This document shows positions 3,744 through 15,177 of a stretch of DNA of 64,000 nt, one piece after another. Every line of letters starts with the position of its first letter. The stretch's first letter is position 1. Source of the DNA: Williamsia sp. (GTDB lineage: Bacteria > Bacteroidota > Bacteroidia > Chitinophagales > Chitinophagaceae); NCBI GenBank assembly GCA_015069695.1, contig JADCRZ010000005.1:186001-250000 (forward strand), read 5' to 3'. The position numbers were made by a program, and so were the translations under genes. The notes beneath the pieces are model-generated. The model was given only the letters and a program-made list of their open reading frames with translations, ran no database searches and was not told where the DNA came from.

Positions 3744-4568
3744 ATGACGTACAGCAACTCATACAGCAACATCAAATCTATCTACGATTCCTATAAGGCC
3801 CTCAGCCAGAAATGGCTCCCGGAGCCGGCTTACACGAAAATGGTTTCCCAAGAAGAACAGAACCGGGAAATACAGCTGCTCGCAGAAACCCTTCATTACG
3901 ACCGGTTCTTTTTTGTCATCAATTTGCATGATTGTAAGATCGAGCACGTGCATGGTGTTGAACGGTGGTTAGGCTATCCGGATAAAGATTTCACGTTGTT
4001 GAAATTTCTTCAGATTATTCATCCATCCCATCTGGGCGCACACCATTTAACCGCAACCCAGTTGATAACAGGACTGATGCGCGGCGACTGGAAAGTAGAG
4101 TTCATGAAGCAACGGTACATCACGAACATAGCCCTTCAGCACAGCAAAGGTCATTATATCCTGTTCAAAAGACTTGCGTCTGTATTCCAGTACAACGACA
4201 AACACCAGTTGCTGGAATACGTAAATGAGTTCACCTGGATGGGTGAATACAACGAAGAATCGTACAAGATTGCAGCTACCGATGCACAGGGAACCAAATT
4301 GTCCTGGCTGGATGATGTACTGCAAAGAACCAGGCAAGCTTTTCAGGATGGCAAATTCCTGAGCTTTCAGGAACTGAGGATCCTGCGAAAGTATGCTTAT
4401 GCACCTGACATTTCAGTAGCCGACATAGCCCAATCTTTCAAAGTAATGGAGAGTACGGTCGTCACACACAAAAGAAGGATCTTGTTGAAGGCCGAAGAAA
4501 TTTTTCACATCCGCTTTGAAAACATCCGGCAGCTGGCCAGGTTCCTGAGAGAACAGGGACTTGTTTGA
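3744..4568 (+). CDS. PAS-like/LuxR-type transcriptional regulator
   Basis: A 274-aa cytoplasmic protein. The N-terminal ~180 residues have the look of a PAS-type sensor fold (FFFVINLHDCKIEHVHGVERWLGY, then a loop with IHPSH and a strand-rich core). The C-terminal ~70 residues form a LuxR/GerE-like helix-turn-helix: FLSFQELRILRKYA, then ISVADIAQSF-KVMESTVVTHKRRIL. This architecture is common in Bacteroidota regulators that bind a small ligand or partner through PAS. No signal peptide or membrane segment is present. It converges with the GH3 operon and stands alone, so its target is unknown. The start is the ATG at 3744. The family call is sure; the ligand is not. Confidence 0.8.
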   Translation: MTYSNSYSNIKSIYDSYKALSQKWLPEPAYTKMVSQEEQNREIQLLAETLHYDRFFFVINLHDCKIEHVHGVERWLGYPDKDFTLLKFLQIIHPSHLGAHHLTATQLITGLMRGDWKVEFMKQRYITNIALQHSKGHYILFKRLASVFQYNDKHQLLEYVNEFTWMGEYNEESYKIAATDAQGTKLSWLDDVLQRTRQAFQDGKFLSFQELRILRKYAYAPDISVADIAQSFKVMESTVVTHKRRILLKAEEIFHIRFENIRQLARFLREQGLV

Positions 4569-4637: not shown

Positions 4638-5807
4638 TCACTTGATGTTGCCCAGGCAAAACTTTAGCCGCAGCATCTTTTTCACAGACGCTTCCAGCTG
4701 TTTTCCCAATTCCGCATTGCCTGAAAAGGCATTTACGATCCTGCTGTTAAGCAATCTTGCGTTGCGTGGCATCAACACCAGGTCGGCTCCGGCTTCAATC
4801 GCTTTCCAGTCTGCTTCAGGTGTCCGGTCCAGTGCGCTCATTCGCATGGCATCTGTAACTACAATACCCTGGTAACCCAGTTCGGTTTTTAATAATTTTT
4901 TGATGATGATAGAAGAAACCGAGCAGGGCATGCCTTTGGTGCCGTAAAACGGGTTGTTCCTTACGGTCATATGACCCACCATTACCATAACCGGAGCCGA
5001 CCGGCTGATCACCAGCCTGAAAGTTTCGAGTTCGGTCAGTGCTCCATCTATATACACCTGCCCCTTGTGGGTGTCGCCTGCAACAGCTCCATGTCCGGGA
5101 AAATGTTTCACGCAGGATACGACCTGCTGCGTTTGGGTAGATTTTACAAAAGCAATCGATTTTTGCATGATGTCAGCGGGATTGTTGCCGAATGAACGAT
5201 TGTTGATCACCGCCTTGTTCAACGCAAGATCTGCTACGGGCGCAAAATTGATCTGGATTCCCATCATTTTAATGGAGGAAGCGATGGCTTCTGCTGCATG
5301 CTGCACCTCTTCCAACTCTTTCAGGTCTGAAGCGGCTTTTACGGGCAATGCACCAATCAATTTTTTGTGAAACAGCGTAGGTTCACAATCGCACGAGTAG
5401 ACCAATTGAGTTTTATGACCGGGGAGAGATATAGAATCAAGTTTTTTTATCTGCTGCTGAAACAAATCTTTTTTACCTTTTAAGAACAACAAACCCCCGA
5501 TAAGGCTGTCTGCAACCAGTTTTTCGGCTCTTGCAAACGGCAACCCCGCAGCTGCTGCCTCACTGGTTGCATCCATGATCAGCTGGGCTGCCCGTTCTTT
5601 CACAGTGAGCCTATCGTATTCCACCTGAACGATGCTGTCCAGGGTTTTTGAGGAACTGTAAAAATCTTCCAGCATAAATTTTATTTCTGTTTGTGACGAA
5701 GCTGCCGCATAAGACGGATGAGGAATCTCTGCTTTAAAGGAACTCGCTCCGCAACAGATCAGCAATGACCATAGCAGCAACAGGGATATACCGGTAGTCT
5801 TGTTCAT
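4638..5807 (-). CDS. Glycoside hydrolase family 3 lipoprotein (NagZ-like)
   Basis: A 389-aa protein with a lipoprotein signal (LLLWSLLICCGASS), so it is expected in the periplasm or on the outer membrane. It carries the GH3 N-terminal TIM-barrel signatures: KHFPGHG at about residue 235, followed by GDTHKG, which matches the Asp-His pair used as general acid/base in NagZ-type GH3 enzymes. VVTDAMRM at about residue 318 carries the nucleophile Asp. These features point to a beta-N-acetylhexosaminidase acting on GlcNAc-containing material such as peptidoglycan fragments. There is no C-terminal (alpha/beta) sandwich domain, as expected for NagZ-like members. It lies 20 bp downstream of a zinc-ribbon gene, so it is the last gene of a three-gene minus-strand operon. 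Exact substrate is inferred. Confidence 0.85.
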   Translation of the reverse strand: MNKTTGISLLLLWSLLICCGASSFKAEIPHPSYAAASSQTEIKFMLEDFYSSSKTLDSIVQVEYDRLTVKERAAQLIMDATSEAAAAGLPFARAEKLVADSLIGGLLFLKGKKDLFQQQIKKLDSISLPGHKTQLVYSCDCEPTLFHKKLIGALPVKAASDLKELEEVQHAAEAIASSIKMMGIQINFAPVADLALNKAVINNRSFGNNPADIMQKSIAFVKSTQTQQVVSCVKHFPGHGAVAGDTHKGQVYIDGALTELETFRLVISRSAPVMVMVGHMTVRNNPFYGTKGMPCSVSSIIIKKLLKTELGYQGIVVTDAMRMSALDRTPEADWKAIEAGADLVLMPRNARLLNSRIVNAFSGNAELGKQLEASVKKMLRLKFCLGNIK

Positions 5808-5827: not shown

Positions 5828-6991
5828 TTACAGAAGCTGGTACACGCTTTTTATTTTGCCCTCTTTATCCAGCACATACACATTGTATACATTGCGGATT
5901 CTTTTTGCATCCGGGCTCTGACTTGTGCTGAATTCAAACCGGCAGCCTACAATGGCTTTTACATCACCATTGGGTTGCCTGCTGATGGTGATCTTGTCCT
6001 GGAAATTGTCTACTTTATGATAAGAAAGTGATTTGAGATAAGAATTGGCGTAAATGCTGAAAAGCGCATCGGCCGGCACGTTTCTCGCGTCGTAATACCG
6101 CGTCATGGGAAATTTATAATAGCTCATGATTTTGCTGATGGCTTCCTGCGATGAGCCGATGTTGTTTTCTTCCTCGTACAAACTGCCGATGCGTTGTTTG
6201 ATCATATCATCCGTAAGCGTGTGCTCACTTGTGTCTGCTTCAGCAGGAGGTGTTGTTTGAGACAGATCCGTGACAGGTGGTTCGATCTGTTTCGTATTAT
6301 CCGGAGGAGGCGGAACGGGCTTGTACGGTGAAAAATTGGATAGCTTGTCTGAAACCGCCGCAGAAATTTTGTCTCCTTCAGCGCCCGGACTTTGATTGCA
6401 TAACTGTTGCTGCTTGTAATACTGTTCATTGAAAATGCTGGCAGCCTGCGGGTTCATAGTGTATTTCCTCATTTTTTCCTCCTGGAAAGACCGTGCCTTT
6501 TCCAGGCAGGCGCTGTATGCCTGGCGTGCATCATTGTCCAGGGAATCCAGTTTTTGCCTGGCTTCATACAGGCTGGTGAAATGATAGTTGTTGTAGTTCT
6601 CCAGGAATTCCTTTCTTTTTTTCAGCATCTCCTGTGTACTTTGCTGTCCGCACAAGCATATTGCTTCCGCAGCGGCTTTGCCATCTTCATCCGGCCTTGG
6701 CCTGAAGAAAAAATAATTGATGCCCCAGGCCAGGCATGCTACTCCTGAAAAGATCAGCAGGAATTTCTTGTTTTTTGCAAACCAGCTTTCTGCAGGGGCG
6801 TTCCGGGGCAGCGAATGTGCGCTTGTATTTTCTAAAGAGACAGAATCGGTTACAAGCGTTTGCGGGGCAGAAAAACTTGTTTGTCCGGATGCAGCAACGT
6901 TTGTTACAGGGGCAAGTAATGGAGCACCGCAACGGATGCAGAATCTTGCAGCCGGTTCATTTTTGAAGCCGCATTTTACACAGTAAGTCAT
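5828..6991 (-). CDS. Zinc-ribbon membrane protein of unknown function
   Basis: A 387-aa protein opening with a zinc-ribbon, CVKCGFKN...RFCIRCG (two CxxC pairs, residues 4-21). A Ser/Thr-rich linker and one transmembrane segment (LLIFSGVACLAWGINYFFF, about residues 78-97) follow. After the membrane come a helical stretch with charged repeats, a Pro/Thr-rich linker (about 225-260) and a C-terminal domain of roughly 120 residues resembling an NTF2-like or calycin-size fold (YYKFPMTRYYDARNVPADALF...IVGCRFEFSTS), which I do not assign. The cytosolic ribbon with a periplasmic domain suggests membrane signalling or scaffold work. It sits between another zinc-ribbon protein and the GH3 gene in one operon. 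Existence is sure; function is unknown. Confidence 0.7.
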   Translation of the reverse strand: MTYCVKCGFKNEPAARFCIRCGAPLLAPVTNVAASGQTSFSAPQTLVTDSVSLENTSAHSLPRNAPAESWFAKNKKFLLIFSGVACLAWGINYFFFRPRPDEDGKAAAEAICLCGQQSTQEMLKKRKEFLENYNNYHFTSLYEARQKLDSLDNDARQAYSACLEKARSFQEEKMRKYTMNPQAASIFNEQYYKQQQLCNQSPGAEGDKISAAVSDKLSNFSPYKPVPPPPDNTKQIEPPVTDLSQTTPPAEADTSEHTLTDDMIKQRIGSLYEEENNIGSSQEAISKIMSYYKFPMTRYYDARNVPADALFSIYANSYLKSLSYHKVDNFQDKITISRQPNGDVKAIVGCRFEFSTSQSPDAKRIRNVYNVYVLDKEGKIKSVYQLL

Positions 6992-7069
6992 AGTGTGATG
7001 AAGTTTACGGAAAGGATGTATGCAACAGCGTATGCTTGTGGAGCCAGCGCAGGCTCATCAGGATGTACG

Positions 7070-7810
7070 TTATTGTCTGGATGCCATTTGCGCAGTATTG
7101 TTGGCGATGGCTGAGAAAGCTCTGTACAGTTCTGCTACAACCTTTGCCGCCAGGATAATAATAAAACCAAGAACCGGGGAAATAATAACCCCTGCAATGC
7201 CGAACTGCTGAAAGGGCAGGGGAAAACCGATTGAAGAACTGCGCTCACCGCTGAGAAAGATCCAGGCAACGAAGGAAGAGCCTGTTCCCAGGATGGCTAT
7301 GGTGGTGCCCAGCCACTCGCCGGTTGTTTGAATGTAATGACTGAACAGCGGGATGGCAAAGAATTGATCCCCTTTCTTGTAATAGGCGTCTATCTTGTCT
7401 TTCCGGTTCCACCACAGCTGAAATCCCATCCAGCCTGCAAAAGCAAGTACCAGCCAGATCATCATTCCCCCGATACCCAGTATGTTCAGCATATCATTGC
7501 TGATAAATTTGAAAAGTACATACACCGGAACCAGTATGTTCAGAACGGCAAACAGGATATACAGCCAGCGCAGCGGCTTTTTAAAGAAGGTGCTATTTTC
7601 CAGCGCGTTGATAAAAACTTCGGCGAAGCGGAAAAACTTTGTTTGCTCCAGTGCACCGAGTGGGTTGTTGCTGCCGGGAGTGGAGGTGTCGGGAGCAGAA
7701 GTTGGTAACGCAACTGTTCCCGGAGAAGCAACAGCCAGGCCACATCCGGGACAAAAAGTAGCTTCCGCCGGTACAAGCGTGTTGCAGTTTGGACAAATTC
7801 TTTGTTGCAT
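7070..7810 (-). CDS. Zinc-ribbon multi-pass membrane protein (DUF4282-like)
   Basis: The open frame extends back to a TTG at 7840, but the ATG at 7810 (MQQRICPNC) puts the zinc ribbon at the N-terminus and is preferred, giving 246 aa. CPNC and CPGC pairs form the ribbon in the first ~25 residues. A Pro/Thr/Ser linker leads to a membrane domain with at least four hydrophobic helices (LYILFAVLNILVPVYVLF, MMIWLVLAFAGWMGF, IAILGTGSSFVAWIFL, IAGVIISPVLGFIIILAA). The layout resembles DUF4282-type small membrane proteins; function is unknown. It is the first gene of the operon that continues with a second zinc-ribbon protein and the GH3 lipoprotein. Confidence 0.65.
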   Translation of the reverse strand: MQQRICPNCNTLVPAEATFCPGCGLAVASPGTVALPTSAPDTSTPGSNNPLGALEQTKFFRFAEVFINALENSTFFKKPLRWLYILFAVLNILVPVYVLFKFISNDMLNILGIGGMMIWLVLAFAGWMGFQLWWNRKDKIDAYYKKGDQFFAIPLFSHYIQTTGEWLGTTIAILGTGSSFVAWIFLSGERSSSIGFPLPFQQFGIAGVIISPVLGFIIILAAKVVAELYRAFSAIANNTAQMASRQ

Positions 7811-8145
7811 GGGTTGTGTTTTATGTAGTGTACAATTCAAATAAAATCTTTGCAGCGTCCTTATTTGCTCAGGCCGTAGAAAGAACAGCGATTCAAATAT
7901 CAGGTGTGTAGAAGATCTATTTTGTCCCCCTAAGTATTACAAAATGGATCCGGTTGCAGAAGGGACGGGTCTGCATTCATCAGGGAAGCTGCTTTGTATC
8001 TGAAAGTCTTCAGAAAAAATCATTTTGTACACAGAGAGGGTACAGTGCTATTTGCGCAGGTGCCGCACTTTTGTTGTGTTGCGCTGAAGTACAGGTGAGA
8101 AATCATCAAACTACAACAGCATTTTTAATTACAAAATGAGAAAAC
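7811..8145. other. Divergent promoter region
   Basis: About 335 bp separate the zinc-ribbon operon (minus) from the CsgG-like gene (plus). A 61-codon open frame (7954-8139) is Cys-rich but without recognisable features and probably not a gene. Promoters for both directions must be here; I see no perfect TAnnTTTG box. Confidence 0.4.
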
Positions 8146-9156
8146 ATGAAACAGTGCTTTCTGTTGCTGATTGGATTTAGTCTGGGTGCAAGCTATGCCT
8201 TTTCCCAGGCAAAACCGAAGCAAGTTGCAAAAAGTCAGCCCAGGACAGAAATGGCTCAGCCGGTTACTCCTGCTCCGGAGCCCCCGCAGGCCGCTTCAGC
8301 GCCCAGCGATCCTTCCAAACCGGTTGTTGCGATCTATTACTTTACAACAACACGCAACTACAGCTACGATTATGCCATTGGTGTAGGTAATGCCGTTGAA
8401 GCCGGATTTGTTCGCTCTACGCGCTTTACCATTGTGGAGCGGAACCGCTTTGGTATGTTGAAGGACGAGGAGCGGTTTAAAGAAGCCAATACAAGCGACC
8501 TTATCGGAAAAGCTTCCAAGCTGGGTGCCAAAACCATTGTTACCGGCCACCTTGTCGGCGTGTCGACGGGCAATATCCTGAGCGTGCTGGATAAGCAGCC
8601 AACCGGCAGACAATACACAGAGATCAGCCTGTCTTTCAAAGTGATCGATGTTGCCAGTGGAGAAATTAAAATAAGCGAAATCATCAATGGCCGGGGTGAG
8701 GGCACAACAAGTACCGAAACCTTGCAGAATGCTTATGTCGCTATCGACAAAATCATCCGTGCTTATATCGGCAACTATTTACCGCAACGCTTCAAGTTTG
8801 CGAATGTTGTTGCAACCAACACCAGAAAGAAAGTTGAATACCTGGAAAGCTTTAAGATCTGGGGCGGATCAGACAATGGATTAAAAGTGGGAGACGCTGT
8901 TGAGATATACATCTTGTCCTACCTGATCAATCCGGAAACCGGCAAGCAGGTAGAGGAAAGAAAGCTCATCGCGCACGCAACCATCTCCGAGATCAACAGC
9001 GGGTCAACAGCAACTTGCATCATTCTCGATACGAGAGACGCTTCCAAATACAACCCTGCTATCCTGAATACGGTTACAACACAGCAAGGCAAGATTACCA
9101 TTGAATACAAAGGAAATTGGTACGAGAAACCAAAAAGCTTTTGGGATAAGATTTAA
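8146..9156 (+). CDS. CsgG/LpoB-like secreted protein
   Basis: A 336-aa protein with a Sec signal peptide (LLLIGFSLGASYAFSQA). A Pro/Ala-rich linker (about residues 20-60) precedes a domain with the CsgG-type pattern: KPVVAIYYFTTT..., then FTIVERNRFGMLKDEERFKEAN and LGAKTIVTGHLVG, in which a predicted lipoprotein-family sensor fold recognises an 'ERN...L..E' helix. A second domain (about 210-336) has the FlgT-C-like pattern LKVGDAVEIYIL. Such proteins are periplasmic and bind outer-membrane or secretion partners; none of the curli genes csgA/B/E/F is nearby, so curli secretion is not supported. The 68 bp to the next lipoprotein suggest co-transcription. Confidence 0.7.
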   Translation: MKQCFLLLIGFSLGASYAFSQAKPKQVAKSQPRTEMAQPVTPAPEPPQAASAPSDPSKPVVAIYYFTTTRNYSYDYAIGVGNAVEAGFVRSTRFTIVERNRFGMLKDEERFKEANTSDLIGKASKLGAKTIVTGHLVGVSTGNILSVLDKQPTGRQYTEISLSFKVIDVASGEIKISEIINGRGEGTTSTETLQNAYVAIDKIIRAYIGNYLPQRFKFANVVATNTRKKVEYLESFKIWGGSDNGLKVGDAVEIYILSYLINPETGKQVEERKLIAHATISEINSGSTATCIILDTRDASKYNPAILNTVTTQQGKITIEYKGNWYEKPKSFWDKI

Positions 9157-9223
9157 CGGTCCGCAAAATGTTTTTATCACGAGCTAAAAAGCCGGGTCAT
9201 TTTTTACCATCAAATTAATCTAT

Positions 9224-9646
9224 ATGAAAAGTGTATTGTTGTCTTTATTCTGTTCTGTTTTTCTATTCCTGTCCTGCAGCAAAAGCAAAGATACCGCTGA
9301 GGTCAAAGCTGAATCACAGCTTATCGGAAAATGGTACCTGAAGAAATGGGTCGCAAACGATGTCAGTGGTACGGGTTCGCGGCCATCCAGCGGAAATTAT
9401 AATGCAAGTGATTATCTCCAGTTTGAATCAGGCGGGAAGCTCACGGCCCGCGTAGATGCCCAGCTCTCGCTGGCTACATGGCAATTGCTGGATAATAATA
9501 AGAAGCTTTGGATCATCAGCACGGTACTGGATACGCCGGATGATGGATACCAGATCAAGACGCTGAACAGCAGCAGCCTGGTATTGTATGTCAAAGAAGG
9601 GACAGGAACAAGCTACTCTGAAATGACCATCTATCTTGAAAAATAA
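9224..9646 (+). CDS. Small lipocalin-like lipoprotein
   Basis: A 140-aa protein with a lipoprotein signal (VFLFLSCSKS, lipobox LSC). The mature part starts with LIGKWYLKKW, the usual opening strand of Bacteroidota lipocalin-like (calycin) lipoproteins. It continues with short beta-rich segments (YLQFESGGKLTA, ATWQLLDNNKKLWII, YQIKTLNSSSLVLYV), also usual for that group. Ligand unknown. It follows the CsgG-like gene on the same strand and converges with the CHAT gene. Confidence 0.65.
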   Translation: MKSVLLSLFCSVFLFLSCSKSKDTAEVKAESQLIGKWYLKKWVANDVSGTGSRPSSGNYNASDYLQFESGGKLTARVDAQLSLATWQLLDNNKKLWIISTVLDTPDDGYQIKTLNSSSLVLYVKEGTGTSYSEMTIYLEK

Positions 9647-9682
9647 GGTGAAGCTTTCTGCAACCGCAAGATGACCGCGAGG

Positions 9683-12550
9683 CTATTCTGCCACTATAAA
9701 ACCAGCCCAGTAATATGGTGGCAGATTTTTCTTCCGCATTTCCTGCTGTGCATCCCTGAGTGCCTTATAAACCGGTTTGCCTCCCAGCCATTGATGGTAA
9801 AAATTCTTCATCAGCTCATTGGTTTCTTTTTCCGGCACTTTCCACAGGCTCATGATGATCTTGTCGGCTCCTGCAAGGCGGAATGCTCTTTGTAAACCAA
9901 ATACGCCCTCGCTGCCGTAGATGCTGCCCAGTGCCGATTCACAGGCATCCAGTATCACCAGCGGCGTGTTGCTGAGATCCATCTGTGCTATCTCATAAGC
10001 GGTCACGATGCCATCTTCACGCCCGGTTACCTGCTGGCCGCTCCAGGCCCTGTTTGCGCCGCTGAAAACGATGCCCGACCGCAGCAGCGGATCAGCCGAT
10101 GGAATGACACTTGTTTGCAGGCCTGTAAGGCTTTTACCGGATTTTTCCGCAGGATCCCGGATGAAAAAACCATGGGTGGAAATATGCAGGACAGACGGAT
10201 CATCAAAACGGATTTCTTTCAGCATGTCTTCCGTTGCGTCTGAGCGTTGGTGTACAGACAAGCTGATATTTTTAGGCCTGCAGAGCGCTTCAAGGTCTTT
10301 GACCTGTGTTTGTCCGAACCGGAGTGCAGGCCATAACAGGTTTATCTTGCAGGCGTCACTGCCCTTGCTGCTGTAGTCGAAATAGGCATTGCCTGTTACT
10401 GCAAGTTTGTTCCTGATATTGCTTGCTTTTGCGCGGTCATAAGTCATATTTCCCCAGAAAGAAACCTTTCTGATGTCAGGTCCGGTGTTTAGTTGTTTAA
10501 CTGCTATATCGCCGGTACTTAGCAGATACCTGAACTCATAGCGGTCGCCCAGCATCTGTTTGTCTCCGGCCGGTATTGCCTGGAATGCAACCTGGTACAG
10601 CAAGCCGGCGGGAGCGATGTATACCGTGTTTGTTTCTTTAAAATAGGGAAGCAGCGGCTTCCAGATCCTGTTGTACAAGATGTCTCCTTTGGATGGCTTG
10701 CCGGCAGTATGCAGGGAATGGTACAGGCTTACAATCATCCTGTCCGTTTCCTGTGATGAGCAGGTAGCAGGCTGCAGCAAGGCGGTTAACTCTTCTTCCC
10801 TGCATAAGAACACGTACTTCGGTAAGCTGTCGCCAGGCTGTAACACCAGCGCAGCATAAAAAAATCCGGCTGCCTGCAGGTTGCTGTAAGATGAAAACCG
10901 CAGGAATTCTACAGCCGCTTCTCCTTGCTGCAGCCTGGCGGAAACGCTTTTTGCGGAAAGATGAAAATACTGTTGTTGCGCGGCAAAGAAGGACGATTTC
11001 TGGGCAAGGCTTTGCTCGAGCTGGTTGGTGATCCGCTCGAGGCTGTCCAGCTCCCCTGTTTGACGGCCCTGTTGTCTGCTTTGCTGCGCAAGCATGCTTT
11101 TGTAGTTTTTCCAGTTTGTATACAGTTGCAAGGCAGAGGAGTCGTGGGTGTTGCGGATTGTGCGAAGGAATGACTGCTGGTCTCTGAGCACTATATTTTT
11201 CAATGTGAGCTGTGCATGATATATTTCTTTTGCAACTTCAGTGGAGTTGATGGAGGTTTTTTGTTGAAGCAGGTAAGGAAGGGCCTGAAAACGTTGTTGC
11301 ATGGAAGCTGCCAGATTCAGTTTTTCCTTTTCGGAAAGGCCGTAAAAGTTCCGGTTGAGATAATTGATATATATGTTCTGAGAGCTGGAAAAGTCTTGAA
11401 AGGCCTGGAGGTTGTTTCCACTCAGCTGATGCATGACTCCCTGGTTTTGGATGATAGATCCAAACATCAGATCATCAGATCTGCCCTGCTTTGCATAGAT
11501 CCGTTTTGCGGCCGCCAGCAAAGAATCTGCTGTTGGCAGGTCTCCTTTAAATATATATACCTGGGCCAGGTTGTTAAGTGTTGCAGCGTACCTTATACCA
11601 GTATCATTTTTGTTTACCTGCCAAAGCTTTAACACCTCCTGATAGGATTTGATTGCCTGGTCATACTTTTTCTCCAGGTACTGCACCTGTCCCAGGTTAT
11701 TCAATACCGTCACATAACTTTCATTCGATTTGTCATAGTGCGTAAGCACATTGGAAATTGCCTGTTTGAAGTAAGCCTCTGATTTCCCGAACTCAAGCAT
11801 GTTCAGGTGTAAGACGCCCATATTGCTCAGCAATTTTGCATACAGGGGATCGGTCTTTGCTATTTTGCCGCTCCTGAATATTTGAAGCGCCTGATTGAAA
11901 TACTTCAGGCTTACTCCATAAGAACCTATGCTTCTGTAAAGCTCTCCCAGGTTGCTGATCGCATACATATATTCCCACACATGCCGGGGATGGTCTTTTC
12001 TGTAGATGTCCGCTACCATGGTAATAATTTGCATGGCTTTATTATACTCTTCTGTATAGTAATAAAGCGCGGACAGGCTGTTTAAGGCAAACAGGTAATT
12101 GGAGTCGCTCTGGTTGGAATATTTGTCCATGATGCTGATCGACTCCTGAAAAACCCTTTCTGCCTTGTCAAATTCTCTTCTGAGAAGGGCTATGTTGCCC
12201 ACGTTCTGAACATGATAAGCATATTCCAGGCTCTTTTCTCCTTTTAGTTTTGTAATGATCTCTACCGCTTTTGTGGAAAACGGTTCTGCTTCATCAAGCT
12301 GATTCATGTTAATGTAAACTGTGGCAATATTGCTCAGCGCATCTACATACGCGGTGCTGTTCTCGCCCGAATCTGTCTTTATTTTCTCAAGCGCCATCTT
12401 TACCAGCTTAAGCGCTTCCAGCGTATTGCCCTTTGAGAATTCCTGGTTGGCTTTCTCATTCAACTCCTCCCCTGTTTGCGAAAACAAGGGGCTTTGCAGG
12501 CAGAGTATAGCCATCATCGTCAAGAACAGGCAGGCAGGCTTGATTTGCAT
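9683..12550 (-). CDS. TPR-CHAT caspase-like protein, secreted
   Basis: A 955-aa protein with a signal peptide (ACLFLTMMAILCLQSPLFSQ). Residues ~25-420 hold about nine tetratricopeptide repeats (for example A-L-S-N-I-A-T-V-Y-I-N-M-N-Q-L-D-E-A). A helical linker follows. The C-terminal ~300 residues are a CHAT domain (caspase HetF-associated with TPRs). The catalytic His is in ISTHGFF at about residue 790 and the catalytic Cys in LDACESALG at about residue 869, with the downstream motif GADKIIMSLWKVP. Both dyad residues are intact, so it should be an active cysteine peptidase, presumably cutting a partner recruited by the TPRs. An N-terminal signal places it outside the cytoplasm, unlike the CHAT proteases of gasdermin or Craspase systems. 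It converges with the lipocalin gene and diverges from the 290-aa gene. Confidence 0.85.
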   Translation of the reverse strand: MQIKPACLFLTMMAILCLQSPLFSQTGEELNEKANQEFSKGNTLEALKLVKMALEKIKTDSGENSTAYVDALSNIATVYINMNQLDEAEPFSTKAVEIITKLKGEKSLEYAYHVQNVGNIALLRREFDKAERVFQESISIMDKYSNQSDSNYLFALNSLSALYYYTEEYNKAMQIITMVADIYRKDHPRHVWEYMYAISNLGELYRSIGSYGVSLKYFNQALQIFRSGKIAKTDPLYAKLLSNMGVLHLNMLEFGKSEAYFKQAISNVLTHYDKSNESYVTVLNNLGQVQYLEKKYDQAIKSYQEVLKLWQVNKNDTGIRYAATLNNLAQVYIFKGDLPTADSLLAAAKRIYAKQGRSDDLMFGSIIQNQGVMHQLSGNNLQAFQDFSSSQNIYINYLNRNFYGLSEKEKLNLAASMQQRFQALPYLLQQKTSINSTEVAKEIYHAQLTLKNIVLRDQQSFLRTIRNTHDSSALQLYTNWKNYKSMLAQQSRQQGRQTGELDSLERITNQLEQSLAQKSSFFAAQQQYFHLSAKSVSARLQQGEAAVEFLRFSSYSNLQAAGFFYAALVLQPGDSLPKYVFLCREEELTALLQPATCSSQETDRMIVSLYHSLHTAGKPSKGDILYNRIWKPLLPYFKETNTVYIAPAGLLYQVAFQAIPAGDKQMLGDRYEFRYLLSTGDIAVKQLNTGPDIRKVSFWGNMTYDRAKASNIRNKLAVTGNAYFDYSSKGSDACKINLLWPALRFGQTQVKDLEALCRPKNISLSVHQRSDATEDMLKEIRFDDPSVLHISTHGFFIRDPAEKSGKSLTGLQTSVIPSADPLLRSGIVFSGANRAWSGQQVTGREDGIVTAYEIAQMDLSNTPLVILDACESALGSIYGSEGVFGLQRAFRLAGADKIIMSLWKVPEKETNELMKNFYHQWLGGKPVYKALRDAQQEMRKKNLPPYYWAGFIVAE

Positions 12551-12739
12551 GGGAAATAATTTGGAGGATTTCTTTTCAATATAAGTTCTTTTTCAACACC
12601 AGCTGTGCCGCTGCAACGGGTATTCTTCCTGAAAAAATAAAAAATAGTTGGTGAAAGCGGTAATTCTTTCTTACAAAAGTGTAGAGGTATAAAGAGAACG
12701 GCCGTTCCGGAATTTTTTCACCACGTAAAAACCTTTTGT

Positions 12740-13612
12740 ATGCAAACAACGAGCATGAGAAACTGCATCATCACCACGTGCGAATCCGACTGTAAAGATT
12801 TCATGGAGCTGTATGCTATATTTACCGCTACCCTTTATCCCGGCATGTCTTTCCGTAAGTTCAGGGCGTTTTACTATAGCAAGTCGCTTGATTATATCGA
12901 TGTTACATTCATGTACAGTGCTGGCCGGCAGATCGGTTTTTACGCAGCGGCTTTTTACCGGACAACCATCAGCGACCGCCCGGTTGTTATTGGCCGGGCT
13001 GCAACGGGTGTATTGCCGGGCGAGAGAGGCGGTAAGCTTCCTGTTTGGTCGTTGTACGCAAAATACATGCGTTACAAACTCAGGCATCCTTTGGCAGGTA
13101 TTCTGCTGACAGCATATGTTGCCAACCCGCTGGTGTATGCCATGATCTGTAAATATACAGGCATTGTTTACCCCCGTTTATCAGTAGACGTAAACGGAGA
13201 GATCATCGGGTTAAAAGATAGCATCCTGCAGCATGGAAACCTGAAGGAGCGCGAGTTGTCACCTTTTGTGGTAAAGATCCACTTCAAGGTGCAGTTGGGA
13301 GAGGACATCATCAGGCGAAGCCTGGAAAGCAACAATGTTTTTGTAAGATATTACCTTTCTATCAACCCACATTTCCAGGAACAGAACGGCGTGCTTACCA
13401 TTGTGCCTGTCACCTGGGAAAATGTTTTGCGCTCCTGCGCCAGGCTGACAAAAGCCTGGTGCGGAAAAAACAAGTGGTGGCGGAGTAGGCCAGCCGGCAA
13501 AGCGGGAGAAAAAGCAGGAAGTGCAGAACAACAGGAAAATTTGTATAATTTTCCAAAGCAGAACCATAGAGCCTATTATGACGAAGCCGTGTTATCAAAT
13601 CCTGAACAATGA
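12740..13612 (+). CDS. Unrecognised 290-aa protein
   Basis: No family is recognised with confidence. The ATG at 12740 was used; another in-frame ATG is at 12755. The middle (IGFYAAAFYRTTI, then VVIGRAATGVLPGERGGKLP) recalls the core of GNAT acyltransferases, which is a weak inference. No signal peptide is seen; the hydrophobic stretch about residues 118-137 is short. The last ~40 residues are low-complexity (AGKAGEKAGSAEQQ) and overlap the start of the sigma-factor gene by 35 bp, so the two are probably translationally coupled. It diverges from the CHAT gene across 189 bp. Confidence 0.5.
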   Translation: MQTTSMRNCIITTCESDCKDFMELYAIFTATLYPGMSFRKFRAFYYSKSLDYIDVTFMYSAGRQIGFYAAAFYRTTISDRPVVIGRAATGVLPGERGGKLPVWSLYAKYMRYKLRHPLAGILLTAYVANPLVYAMICKYTGIVYPRLSVDVNGEIIGLKDSILQHGNLKERELSPFVVKIHFKVQLGEDIIRRSLESNNVFVRYYLSINPHFQEQNGVLTIVPVTWENVLRSCARLTKAWCGKNKWWRSRPAGKAGEKAGSAEQQENLYNFPKQNHRAYYDEAVLSNPEQ

Positions 13613-14213
13613 AGAGCTTATTCAGATCTTGCAGGATGGTACCCAAAAGAGCGAACTCGAAGTGTATACATGTTTAAAGCAGATTTTCCGGGAAACAATG
13701 ATCCGGCGGCTGATCAAGCCGGGCCAGGGACTTCCCGGAGCAGATACGCAGCGCCTGATTGCCGAAGAGGTTTTCCACGAAGCTTTTGTTGCGCTGGTAA
13801 ACAATGTGCGGGAAGGCGGCTTTGAAGCAAAAGCCAGGGAAGGAAAAACGGCAGGAAGTGTCGGCTATTTTTTCGGCATCCTGTGGCATTTGTTTCAGCA
13901 TGCGCTGAAGCGGAAGTATAACAGGAATTTTTATTCTTTTAACGAGCAGGCGTATGCCAGGCGGGTAGAGATGTCGCCTGATCTGCCTGCTTACAACCGG
14001 GAGGACGGAACTTCTGTTATGCTGCAGACCGCTGTTCGCATGCTGCCTGAAAAATGCCGCAGATATATGCAATGGTACTATATAGAGAAAAAAGATACAG
14101 ATGAAATCATCTCGCTGGTAACAGACGCGCCCGGTACTGTTAAGAGGGACTTGTCGCGTTGCAGAGGTAAATTGCAGGAAAAGGTAAGGGCGCTTTGCAA
14201 TTTCGGTCTTTGA
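13578..14213 (+). CDS. ECF-type RNA polymerase sigma factor
   Basis: The frame opens earlier at 13521, but the ATG at 13578 (MTKPCYQILNNEEL) gives a 211-aa protein of normal ECF size and removes most overlap with the upstream gene. Region 2-like residues are about 20-110 (EEVFHEAFVALVNNV, GYFFGILWHLFQHALKRKY). Region 4 is the C-terminal third: LPEKCRRYMQWYYIEKK-DTDEI and TVKRDLSRCRGKL, the usual helix-turn-helix of a sigma-70 ECF factor. The next gene encodes a membrane protein of anti-sigma type 31 bp away. No SusC/FecR pair is attached, so it is not a nutrient-uptake ECF. Its targets might include the CHAT island. Confidence 0.75.
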   Translation: MTKPCYQILNNEELIQILQDGTQKSELEVYTCLKQIFRETMIRRLIKPGQGLPGADTQRLIAEEVFHEAFVALVNNVREGGFEAKAREGKTAGSVGYFFGILWHLFQHALKRKYNRNFYSFNEQAYARRVEMSPDLPAYNREDGTSVMLQTAVRMLPEKCRRYMQWYYIEKKDTDEIISLVTDAPGTVKRDLSRCRGKLQEKVRALCNFGL

Positions 14214-14244
14214 TAGCCTAATTGAGCCGTATAAGCTGTTTCGC

Positions 14245-15177
14245 ATGAGTATACCACAGGAAAAACAAGAAAAACTGATTGCTTACTTTGAAGGAAAGTT
14301 ATCTGCTGAAGAGGAGATCAGCTTTTTACAGGAGGTAGAGAATGACGAAGCATTGCAAAAGGAATTCGACTGGGAACTCTTGCTCCGGTATGAGCAGTTT
14401 AACGAGCTCAATACAATCGCTCACCAAGACCAGGCGGAAGAGTTTGAGCCGGCAGATGCACATATTGACAGAATCAAAGAAGCCTGGAAGCAGGGCGGTA
14501 CGCAAGAAGGGTCTGTGCAGCCGGCATCGCCTGTAGTACGGCTCCGGAGATTCACGGTCGCTGCCGCCATTTTTGTTCTTGCGCTGGGGGCTGCCCTATT
14601 CTATCTTCTCTACTTTAAAAAGCAAACGCCGGATGTGGTTCATCGTGAGCCACCGGTAAAACACGACAGCGGACGTATACACGAGGAAAAAATGCTGCCG
14701 GACCCGGGGAACAGGGAACGTGTTCTGGCAGAAAACAGCGAGCGGGCTGAAAAGGCTTATAAAAAGTATTACCGGAAATATACAGGTTCGGAAGAAGATC
14801 CTGTCCAGGCAAGTAAGTACCTGTACGCTTACAACGAAAGCCGGTACGATGACGTGATCAATGGCACAGCAAAAGAGCTGATAAGCAAAGGGGCAAACAC
14901 CCCTAATTCCACCCTCGAAGCTTACCTCAACTTTTACCAGGGTATATCTTACCTGCATACAAAGAAAAGCGCACCGGCTATCACCAAGCTCCGTGAAGTG
15001 CTTGGGCAGGTCTCTTCAAAGAACCAGCTGTATTACGATGCCAGCTGGTACCTGGCCATGGCCTACCTGCAGGGCGGCACCCCGGCGGACGCAAGCCAGC
15101 TGCTGCAGCAGCTGGCGGATAGTAAGAGGAATACAAGCTATAAGAAGCGGGCAGCGGCGATATTAAAGAGCTTGTAA
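14245..15177 (+). CDS. Anti-sigma-like membrane protein with TPR-like C-terminus
   Basis: A 310-aa protein. The N-terminal ~95 residues (EKLIAYFEGKLSAEEEISFLQEV) resemble the cytoplasmic helical domain of Bacteroidota anti-sigma proteins, although no zinc-binding HCC motif is visible. One transmembrane segment follows (FTVAAAIFVLALGAALFYLLYF, about residues 97-118). The periplasmic region (about 120-310) contains TPR-like helices (YLNFYQGISYLHTKKSAPAITKL, YDASWYLAMAYLQGGTPADASQLL). The protein lies 31 bp after the sigma gene. Inference: it holds the sigma factor at the membrane and a periplasmic signal through the TPRs releases it. Confidence 0.65.
   Translation: MSIPQEKQEKLIAYFEGKLSAEEEISFLQEVENDEALQKEFDWELLLRYEQFNELNTIAHQDQAEEFEPADAHIDRIKEAWKQGGTQEGSVQPASPVVRLRRFTVAAAIFVLALGAALFYLLYFKKQTPDVVHREPPVKHDSGRIHEEKMLPDPGNRERVLAENSERAEKAYKKYYRKYTGSEEDPVQASKYLYAYNESRYDDVINGTAKELISKGANTPNSTLEAYLNFYQGISYLHTKKSAPAITKLREVLGQVSSKNQLYYDASWYLAMAYLQGGTPADASQLLQQLADSKRNTSYKKRAAAILKSL

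Follow-up and report, generated by a model that had tools for sequence, protein, structure and literature searches.

A recurrent unit of a TPR-CHAT protease, an ECF sigma factor and a membrane anti-sigma-like protein in Chitinophagaceae

Results

A three-gene unit within a larger proposed island

We analysed a stretch of 64,000 nucleotides (the window) from contig JADCRZ010000005.1 of the Williamsia sp. assembly GCA_015069695.1, a member of the Chitinophagaceae, in which a preliminary description had placed a gene island around a CHAT protease. The supported unit is smaller than this island. It consists of a tetratricopeptide repeat (TPR)-CHAT protease, an extracytoplasmic function (ECF) sigma factor and an anti-sigma-like TPR protein with a single transmembrane (TM) segment:

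9683..12550, minus strand: TPR-CHAT protease, predicted to be exported; 955 residues (PF12770 1.4e-55, TPR_12 9.8e-40)
13578..14213, plus strand: ECF-type sigma factor; 211 residues (TIGR02937 2.8e-10; family profile matches ECF sigma factors in the PDB)
14245..15177, plus strand: anti-sigma-like protein; 310 residues (N-terminal helical domain, one TM segment, flexible linker, C-terminal TPR domain)

CHAT genes are linked to sigma/anti-sigma-like pairs in the host family

A sample of 60 host-family genomes, searched at E up to 1e-10, gave 68 CHAT hits distributed over 29 genomes. Open reading frames (ORFs) were recovered for 67 of these (one, in genome G026, was missed), and 13 of the 67 ORFs were excluded because of flanks shorter than 3.5 kb. 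The 54 CHAT ORFs left comprise 10 of at least 1400 residues and 44 shorter ones. A pair was defined as a sigma gene followed by a TM protein gene, using simple ORF calling, a hydropathy rule for TM segments and local profiles partly seeded with CHAT-adjacent genes. It was found that 29 of the 44 shorter CHAT genes have such a pair within 4 genes (24 within 2 genes, 13 directly adjacent), as compared to 0 of the 10 long ones. Under the same flank rule, only 1 of 33 control genes of 500–1400 residues had a pair within 4 genes (Fisher p 4e-9), the controls being drawn from 20 non-random loci at hand-picked round coordinates in 10 genomes, one of which (G106) lies outside the 60. When flank length is disregarded, 30 of 67 CHAT genes have a pair, versus 2 of 64 controls. 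The difference between CHAT and control genes supports the notion that CHAT, sigma factor and TPR anti-sigma-like protein recur together as a unit, as the preliminary description had supposed for these three members. Two loci with partial-looking pairs (L111 and L124) failed the rule and were scored as misses. Of the 30 pairs, 28 have a TM partner recognised by the TPR anti-sigma profile, some of these partners being seeds of the profile themselves; those at L115 and L118 are not recognised. This profile was built without iteration, and a FecR profile that also matched TPR-type proteins was kept out of the counts.

The 30 pairs are spread over 18 of the 29 CHAT-bearing genomes. Of the 27 modules whose partner is of the TPR type, 13 have CHAT and sigma on the same strand, 8 are convergent and 6 are divergent. 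Hence, the linkage does not reflect one inherited operon order. Across the 27 modules, distances between CHAT domains track those between sigma factors (Spearman 0.50, permutation p about 0.001) and, at a lower correlation, those between anti-sigma-like proteins (Spearman 0.25, permutation p about 0.002), host relatedness being included in both values. The Williamsia genome itself has 11 CHAT matches, and at three of its other loci (L026, L027 and L029) a CHAT gene has a sigma gene and a TM/TPR gene as neighbours.

In some modules a protease-like gene is located between the TM protein and CHAT: an S8 subtilase (L029:7459-8865), an M48-like TPR protein scoring below cut-off (L046:8674-9789) and a gene called protease-like by resemblance alone (L047:938-2467). 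A distinct class of CHAT proteins of ~1770–1820 residues was also seen in seven genomes (L151, L154-L157, L159 and L160); these have neither a sigma pair nor a signal or C-terminal TM segment. At two sigma-less CHAT genes of the Williamsia genome, a small proline-run protein is encoded directly upstream (L028:5400-5951 and L031:7252-7833), with the proline run at the end of the protein in L028 and internal in L031.

The CHAT proteases carry a conserved dyad and are predicted to be exported

The window CHAT protein has a signal-like N-terminus, TPRs at about residues 30–355 and a CHAT domain spanning residues 624–953 of 955. Both catalytic residues claimed for it are present, as His793 and Cys870, and both are conserved in alignments; the His/Cys pair is kept in 30/30 pair-associated CHAT proteins. 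A search of the PDB with the CHAT profile returned 8rot, a CHAT domain-containing protein, among the best matches, with His and Cys aligned. The chains 8d9f and 7x8a ('CHAT domain protein'), which we take to be of type III-E, matched at 3e-6, with His and Cys aligned in the 8d9f alignment, followed by 'TPR-CHAT' 7zoq (0.008) and 'Csx29' 7y9x (0.24). PADLOC gave two matches, both within the TPR region of the window CHAT.

Signal-like and TM segments were called by our own heuristic and hydropathy rules rather than by a trained predictor. By these rules, 23 of the 30 pair-associated CHAT proteins have a signal-like N-terminus, 22 have a C-terminal TM segment and 29 have at least one of the two. 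The type III-E TPR-CHAT works in the cytoplasm with its effector, a location that is at odds with the signal-like N-terminus of the window CHAT and with the segments called in these 29 proteins.

The sigma factor and its membrane partner

Assignment of the window sigma factor to the ECF group, as claimed previously, is borne out at the level of its family, the protein by itself scoring below curated cut-offs: TIGR02937 gives 40.0 bits (cut-off 42.9) and Sigma70_r4_2 gives 0.012 and 15.7 bits (cut-off 25.7). A five-member sigma profile matches the ECF factor SigW in the PDB at 2.6e-12, with weaker matches to SigH and sigma-E.

The 310-residue protein encoded directly downstream is indeed a TPR-bearing TM protein, with a small N-terminal domain, one TM segment (about residues 97–125) and a predicted outer C-terminal domain, the layout of a membrane anti-sigma factor. 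Matches to anti-sigma models are far below cut-off (NF052375 0.011, NF038083 0.0036). The AlphaFold model has a mean predicted local distance difference test score (pLDDT) of 61.5; the TPR domain is confident and the N-terminal bundle (residues 1–40) fairly so, while the linker is poorly ordered, mostly below 50 pLDDT. Fold comparison with the PDB likens the TPR part to YbgF, NprR and BamD, with coverage mainly of the TPR part and the N-terminal part hardly compared. Counting lysine and arginine residues on both sides of the TM segment places the N-terminus inside in 22 of the 27 modules, with ties in 4. The CHAT protease and the TPR ectodomain are thus both predicted to lie outside the membrane.

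Searches from the anti-sigma side led back to CHAT genes in part. The window 310-residue protein has matches in 11 of 147 family genomes. At eight such places in other genomes (L024 and L033-L039), CHAT is found within 4 genes at 6, and the other two lie at contig ends. In a scan of 99 genomes of the class, 50 have matches to a TM/TPR profile, many of these matches covering the TPR part alone. Among 20 sigma/anti-sigma places chosen from these in other families (11 in G338, 8 in G412 and 1 in G379), CHAT is within 4 genes at 9; the anti-sigma family is therefore wider than its link to CHAT. Both the 6 of 8 and the 9 of 20 were counted by eye, a CHAT gene 5 genes away at L214 being a miss.

At L033, which is truncated at a contig end, the match to the TPR part adjoins a likewise truncated WD40 protein with a sub-cut-off caspase match. 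The genomes G338 and G412, of one family, have 16 and 14 TM/TPR profile matches, respectively, an apparent expansion in which some matches are two pieces of one gene.

Single-chain forms in Acidobacteriota

An arrangement in a single polypeptide was found in Acidobacteriota. The 1174-residue protein at L096 has an N-terminal domain, a TM segment at 116, TPRs at about 201–323 and a CHAT domain at 891–1169, and its gene directly follows a weak sigma-like gene (Sigma70_r2 0.022). The first 330 residues have matches in 10 of 80 genomes of the phylum (E up to 1e-8), six of them in ORFs of 1176–1248 residues. The neighbourhoods of eight places added six ORFs with both parts. In total, seven loci combine an anti-sigma-like part, a TM segment and CHAT in one ORF (L096, L248, L249, L250, L252, L254 and L255, the match at L255 being weak at 34.6 bits), and 6 of the 7 fusion ORFs are next to a detected sigma-like gene, such genes being called with a permissive profile threshold or through resemblance to the L096 one. 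At L251 and L253 the anti-sigma-like/TM part and CHAT are encoded by two adjacent genes. All nine Acidobacteriota loci retain His and Cys, and TPRs are detected by Pfam in the L096 fusion alone. The position and topology of the N-terminal part of the fusions suggest that it is an anti-sigma domain. The preliminary description had placed TPRs in both the protease and the periplasmic region of the anti-sigma; predicted topology indeed puts both outside, and the single-chain fusions agree.

A possible protease-gated sigma switch

We favour a model in which the exported CHAT protease would cut the membrane anti-sigma outside the membrane and so free the ECF sigma factor, a protease-gated envelope sigma switch that we hold to be about evenly poised between right and wrong. 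The single-pass anti-sigma-like protein, with its TPR domain in the periplasm, would tether the ECF sigma factor to the inner membrane. The exported TPR-CHAT could sense a partner or damage signal via its own TPRs and, once activated, would cleave the exposed linker of the anti-sigma, to which the TPR domain of the latter might guide it. Degradation of the remaining anti-sigma would then release the sigma factor. The model is built on the gene linkage, the conserved dyad, the predicted topology and the fusions seen in Acidobacteriota; from these we infer sigma binding, cleavage, a signal, follow-up proteolysis and a regulon. The cleavage of a sigma inhibitor by Csx29 in type III-E CRISPR (PMC10028731) is a precedent.

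Several observations weigh against this model, in which cleavage and the fate of the cut anti-sigma are the steps most in doubt. RseP was sought in the Williamsia assembly (7.66 Mb in 222 contigs, rated 99.3% complete): PF02163 gave no match at 0.001 and TIGR00054 gave partial matches only, those listed being at about model positions 194–278. The TIGR00054 cut-off is exceeded in 37 of 40 family genomes. In the two other genomes below it (G038 and G012) the matches start within 20 bases of a contig end, and the missing RseP may therefore reflect an assembly gap. Further points concern the linkage itself: 15 of the 44 CHAT genes have no pair nearby, 11 of the 20 sigma/anti-sigma pairs from other families lack a CHAT gene within 4 genes, and within-genome paralogues display no correlation of CHAT and anti-sigma distances (rho 0.06, p 0.39, 15 pairs). 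The dyad is not special to pairing, as H and C are also kept in 33 of 35 unpaired CHAT proteins. Likewise, a signal-like and/or C-terminal TM segment is found in 20 of 24 unpaired CHAT proteins shorter than 1400 residues; as judged from such segments, export is a trait of this CHAT group and not of pairing with a sigma factor. The CHAT and sigma genes of the window are divergently oriented, and the 310-residue protein is the one of 27 to contradict an inside N-terminus by lysine/arginine count.

The CHAT protein could alternatively be an effector whose expression the sigma factor controls, such as a secreted or envelope protease, with no action on the anti-sigma. Many ECF systems neighbour their targets, CHAT is on the opposite strand from the sigma gene in 14 of the 27 modules, and the 11 pairs of other families without CHAT also fit such an output role. 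It is hard to explain for a mere product, however, why the anti-sigma-like part should be joined to CHAT in one chain at 7 loci. A shared promoter was sought in the intergenic region between CHAT and the 290-residue gene by aligning the window with L024, and no clear motif for sigma control of the CHAT promoter emerged. On balance we consider an output role somewhat unlikely. It is decidedly unlikely, in our view, that CHAT cuts another envelope protein to yield a peptide that binds the anti-sigma TPR domain, a change of shape then freeing the sigma factor with the anti-sigma uncut. The resemblance of the TPR ectodomain model to YbgF, an NprR-peptide complex and BamD would suit such a relay, weakly so given that TPR folds are alike, as would the other proteases and protease-like genes that separate the TM protein from CHAT in some modules. 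The fusions, however, place CHAT next to the anti-sigma itself. The family is also rich in sigma factors (the 20 control loci, of 20 kb each, contain 6 sigma genes), such that neighbours might arise by chance; this is contradicted for the core trio by the 29 of 44 versus 1 of 33 (Fisher 4e-9) and by the fusions, making it barely credible.

Should the protease-gated switch be true, caspase-like CHAT proteases would perform the site-1 cleavage of anti-sigma factors in both Bacteroidota and Acidobacteriota. It would provide a testable function for a large group of uncharacterised CHAT proteins and a non-CRISPR setting for the protease/sigma logic of type III-E, and the naturally fused form lends itself to a direct test.

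Other genes of the proposed island

Three further genes of the window are considered here:

12740..13612, plus strand: 290-residue protein, a rare accessory gene; no Pfam/NCBIfam match
3744..4568, plus strand: LuxR-type regulator, an optional associate outside the supported unit (GerE 0.0045, below cut-off)
4638-5807: GH3 gene

The preliminary description had placed the island at 5828-15177; the GH3 gene counted among its members exists and lies outside this stretch. The two zinc-ribbon membrane proteins and the CsgG-like protein were correctly recognised, as seen from the TM segments of the former and a PF03783 match (3.2e-6) of the latter. The lipocalin-like lipoprotein resembles Lipocalin_4 with a score below cut-off (0.0028).

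The island as one unit was rejected. In BLAST searches (1e-4) of 64 other CHAT loci, no homologues of GH3, of either zinc-ribbon protein or of the lipocalin were found, and one each of the CsgG-like, 290-residue and LuxR proteins; GH3 has one distant match within the 20 control loci. The wider membership claimed for GH3, zinc ribbons, CsgG and lipocalin (0, 0, 1 and 0 homologues, respectively) is thus not upheld, and chance neighbourhood stands for GH3, the zinc ribbons and the lipocalin, and largely for CsgG. A neighbourhood search with CHAT and the 290-residue protein had been put forward as a check of the island: CHAT, sigma and TM/TPR genes do co-occur, while the 290-residue and other members are rare or absent.

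At L024, from another genus, the block of 290-residue, sigma and anti-sigma genes with a divergent CHAT is preserved, and homologues of the window GH3, zinc-ribbon, CsgG and lipocalin genes are absent from the locus. Two apparent counterparts there were discarded: the lipocalins of both loci are weak Lipocalin_4 matches between which BLAST finds no similarity, and a 297-residue gene near the L024 lipocalin is dissimilar to the window CsgG. The third gene from CHAT at L034, near a sigma/anti-sigma/CHAT module, is CsgG-like and 59% identical to the window one (282 residues aligned). Near-identical plasmid copies were sought and none found.

No family was found for the 290-residue protein in sequence searches of Pfam, NCBIfam and the PDB. 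It occurs in 3 of 147 family genomes (own included) and in 1 of 198 phylum genomes (the own one). The sigma ORF, taken from ATG 13578, overlaps the 3' end of the 290-residue gene by 35 nucleotides, an alternative start being GTG 13521. The structure model of the 290-residue protein (pLDDT 37) has an order of secondary-structure elements like that which we take to be typical of GNAT. An acetyltransferase assignment was set aside, as the element order alone fits GNAT, the model is poor and the PDB gave no sequence match.

A LuxR-type gene is located within 10 kb of the 290-residue gene in 3/3 family genomes having the latter (window, L024 and L025); in G039 the two genes are adjacent, with no CHAT nearby. 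The LuxR protein has matches in 7 of 147 genomes at 0.001, 5 of them strong (<1e-40), and using these 5 the hypergeometric p is 2e-5. The LuxR gene occurs without the 290-residue gene in G122 (an 8-kb contig) and G098. The L024 LuxR homologue has a PAS_3 match below cut-off.

Comparison with known systems

The preliminary description knew of no described CHAT system with such a layout. This is not supported: in type III-E CRISPR, the TPR-CHAT protein Csx29 cleaves Csx30, an inhibitor of the ECF-like sigma factor CASP-sigma (PMC10028731), and CHAT genes have been noted near ECF54 sigma genes (PMC8999054). The unit described here shares with type III-E a TPR-CHAT protein, an ECF-like sigma factor and a proposed inhibitor of sigma. 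Unlike in type III-E, export is predicted for the CHAT protein, and its inhibitor-like partner is a membrane-spanning protein with TPRs. No Cas families were detected among the ten window genes scanned and no Rfam match in the window, a dedicated Cas7-11/array search not having been made.

The ECF54 setting has a CHAT protease and a subtilase near the ECF gene, and in one module of the Williamsia genome (L029) an S8 protease gene separates the anti-sigma gene from CHAT. The ECF54 group is described as being without an anti-sigma (PMC8999054), whereas a TM anti-sigma-like gene directly follows the sigma gene here. EACC2-caspase systems likewise combine a caspase-clan protease, an ECF sigma factor and a TPR protein in one neighbourhood (PMC8195603); those differ in having a caspase domain, EACC2 and variable sensors, with TPR-CHAT here. 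A caspase-like protease gene also occurs together with a sigma gene in metacaspase operons of Myxococcus and others, which contain sigma-70 genes (PMC3501461). Here TPR-CHAT takes the place of the metacaspase, and the accessible portion of that paper leaves anti-sigma unmentioned. The regulated proteolysis of anti-sigma factors by RseA-DegS-RseP and related systems (PMC10028731) offers a likeness in the single-pass anti-sigma with a periplasmic part and in site-1 cleavage logic. It differs in that the proposed site-1 protease here is CHAT, and RseP was not found in the Williamsia assembly.

In the open-access literature searched, only PMC10028731 mentions both a CHAT domain and an anti-sigma, and no description was found of an extracytoplasmic CHAT with a TM/TPR anti-sigma-like partner, or of the fusions; an earlier one is possible. 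It is conceivable, and we put this forward tentatively, that CHAT-gated sigma switches are widespread, extracytoplasmic and CRISPR-free, with a caspase-like protease relaying signals through the envelope and a single-chain form in Acidobacteriota, in which case the type III-E arm (Csx29, Csx30 and CASP-sigma) could be a cytoplasmic offshoot that adopted this logic. The protease/sigma logic is already known from type III-E, while its extracytoplasmic form with a TM/TPR partner and the fusions appear to be new within the literature searched.

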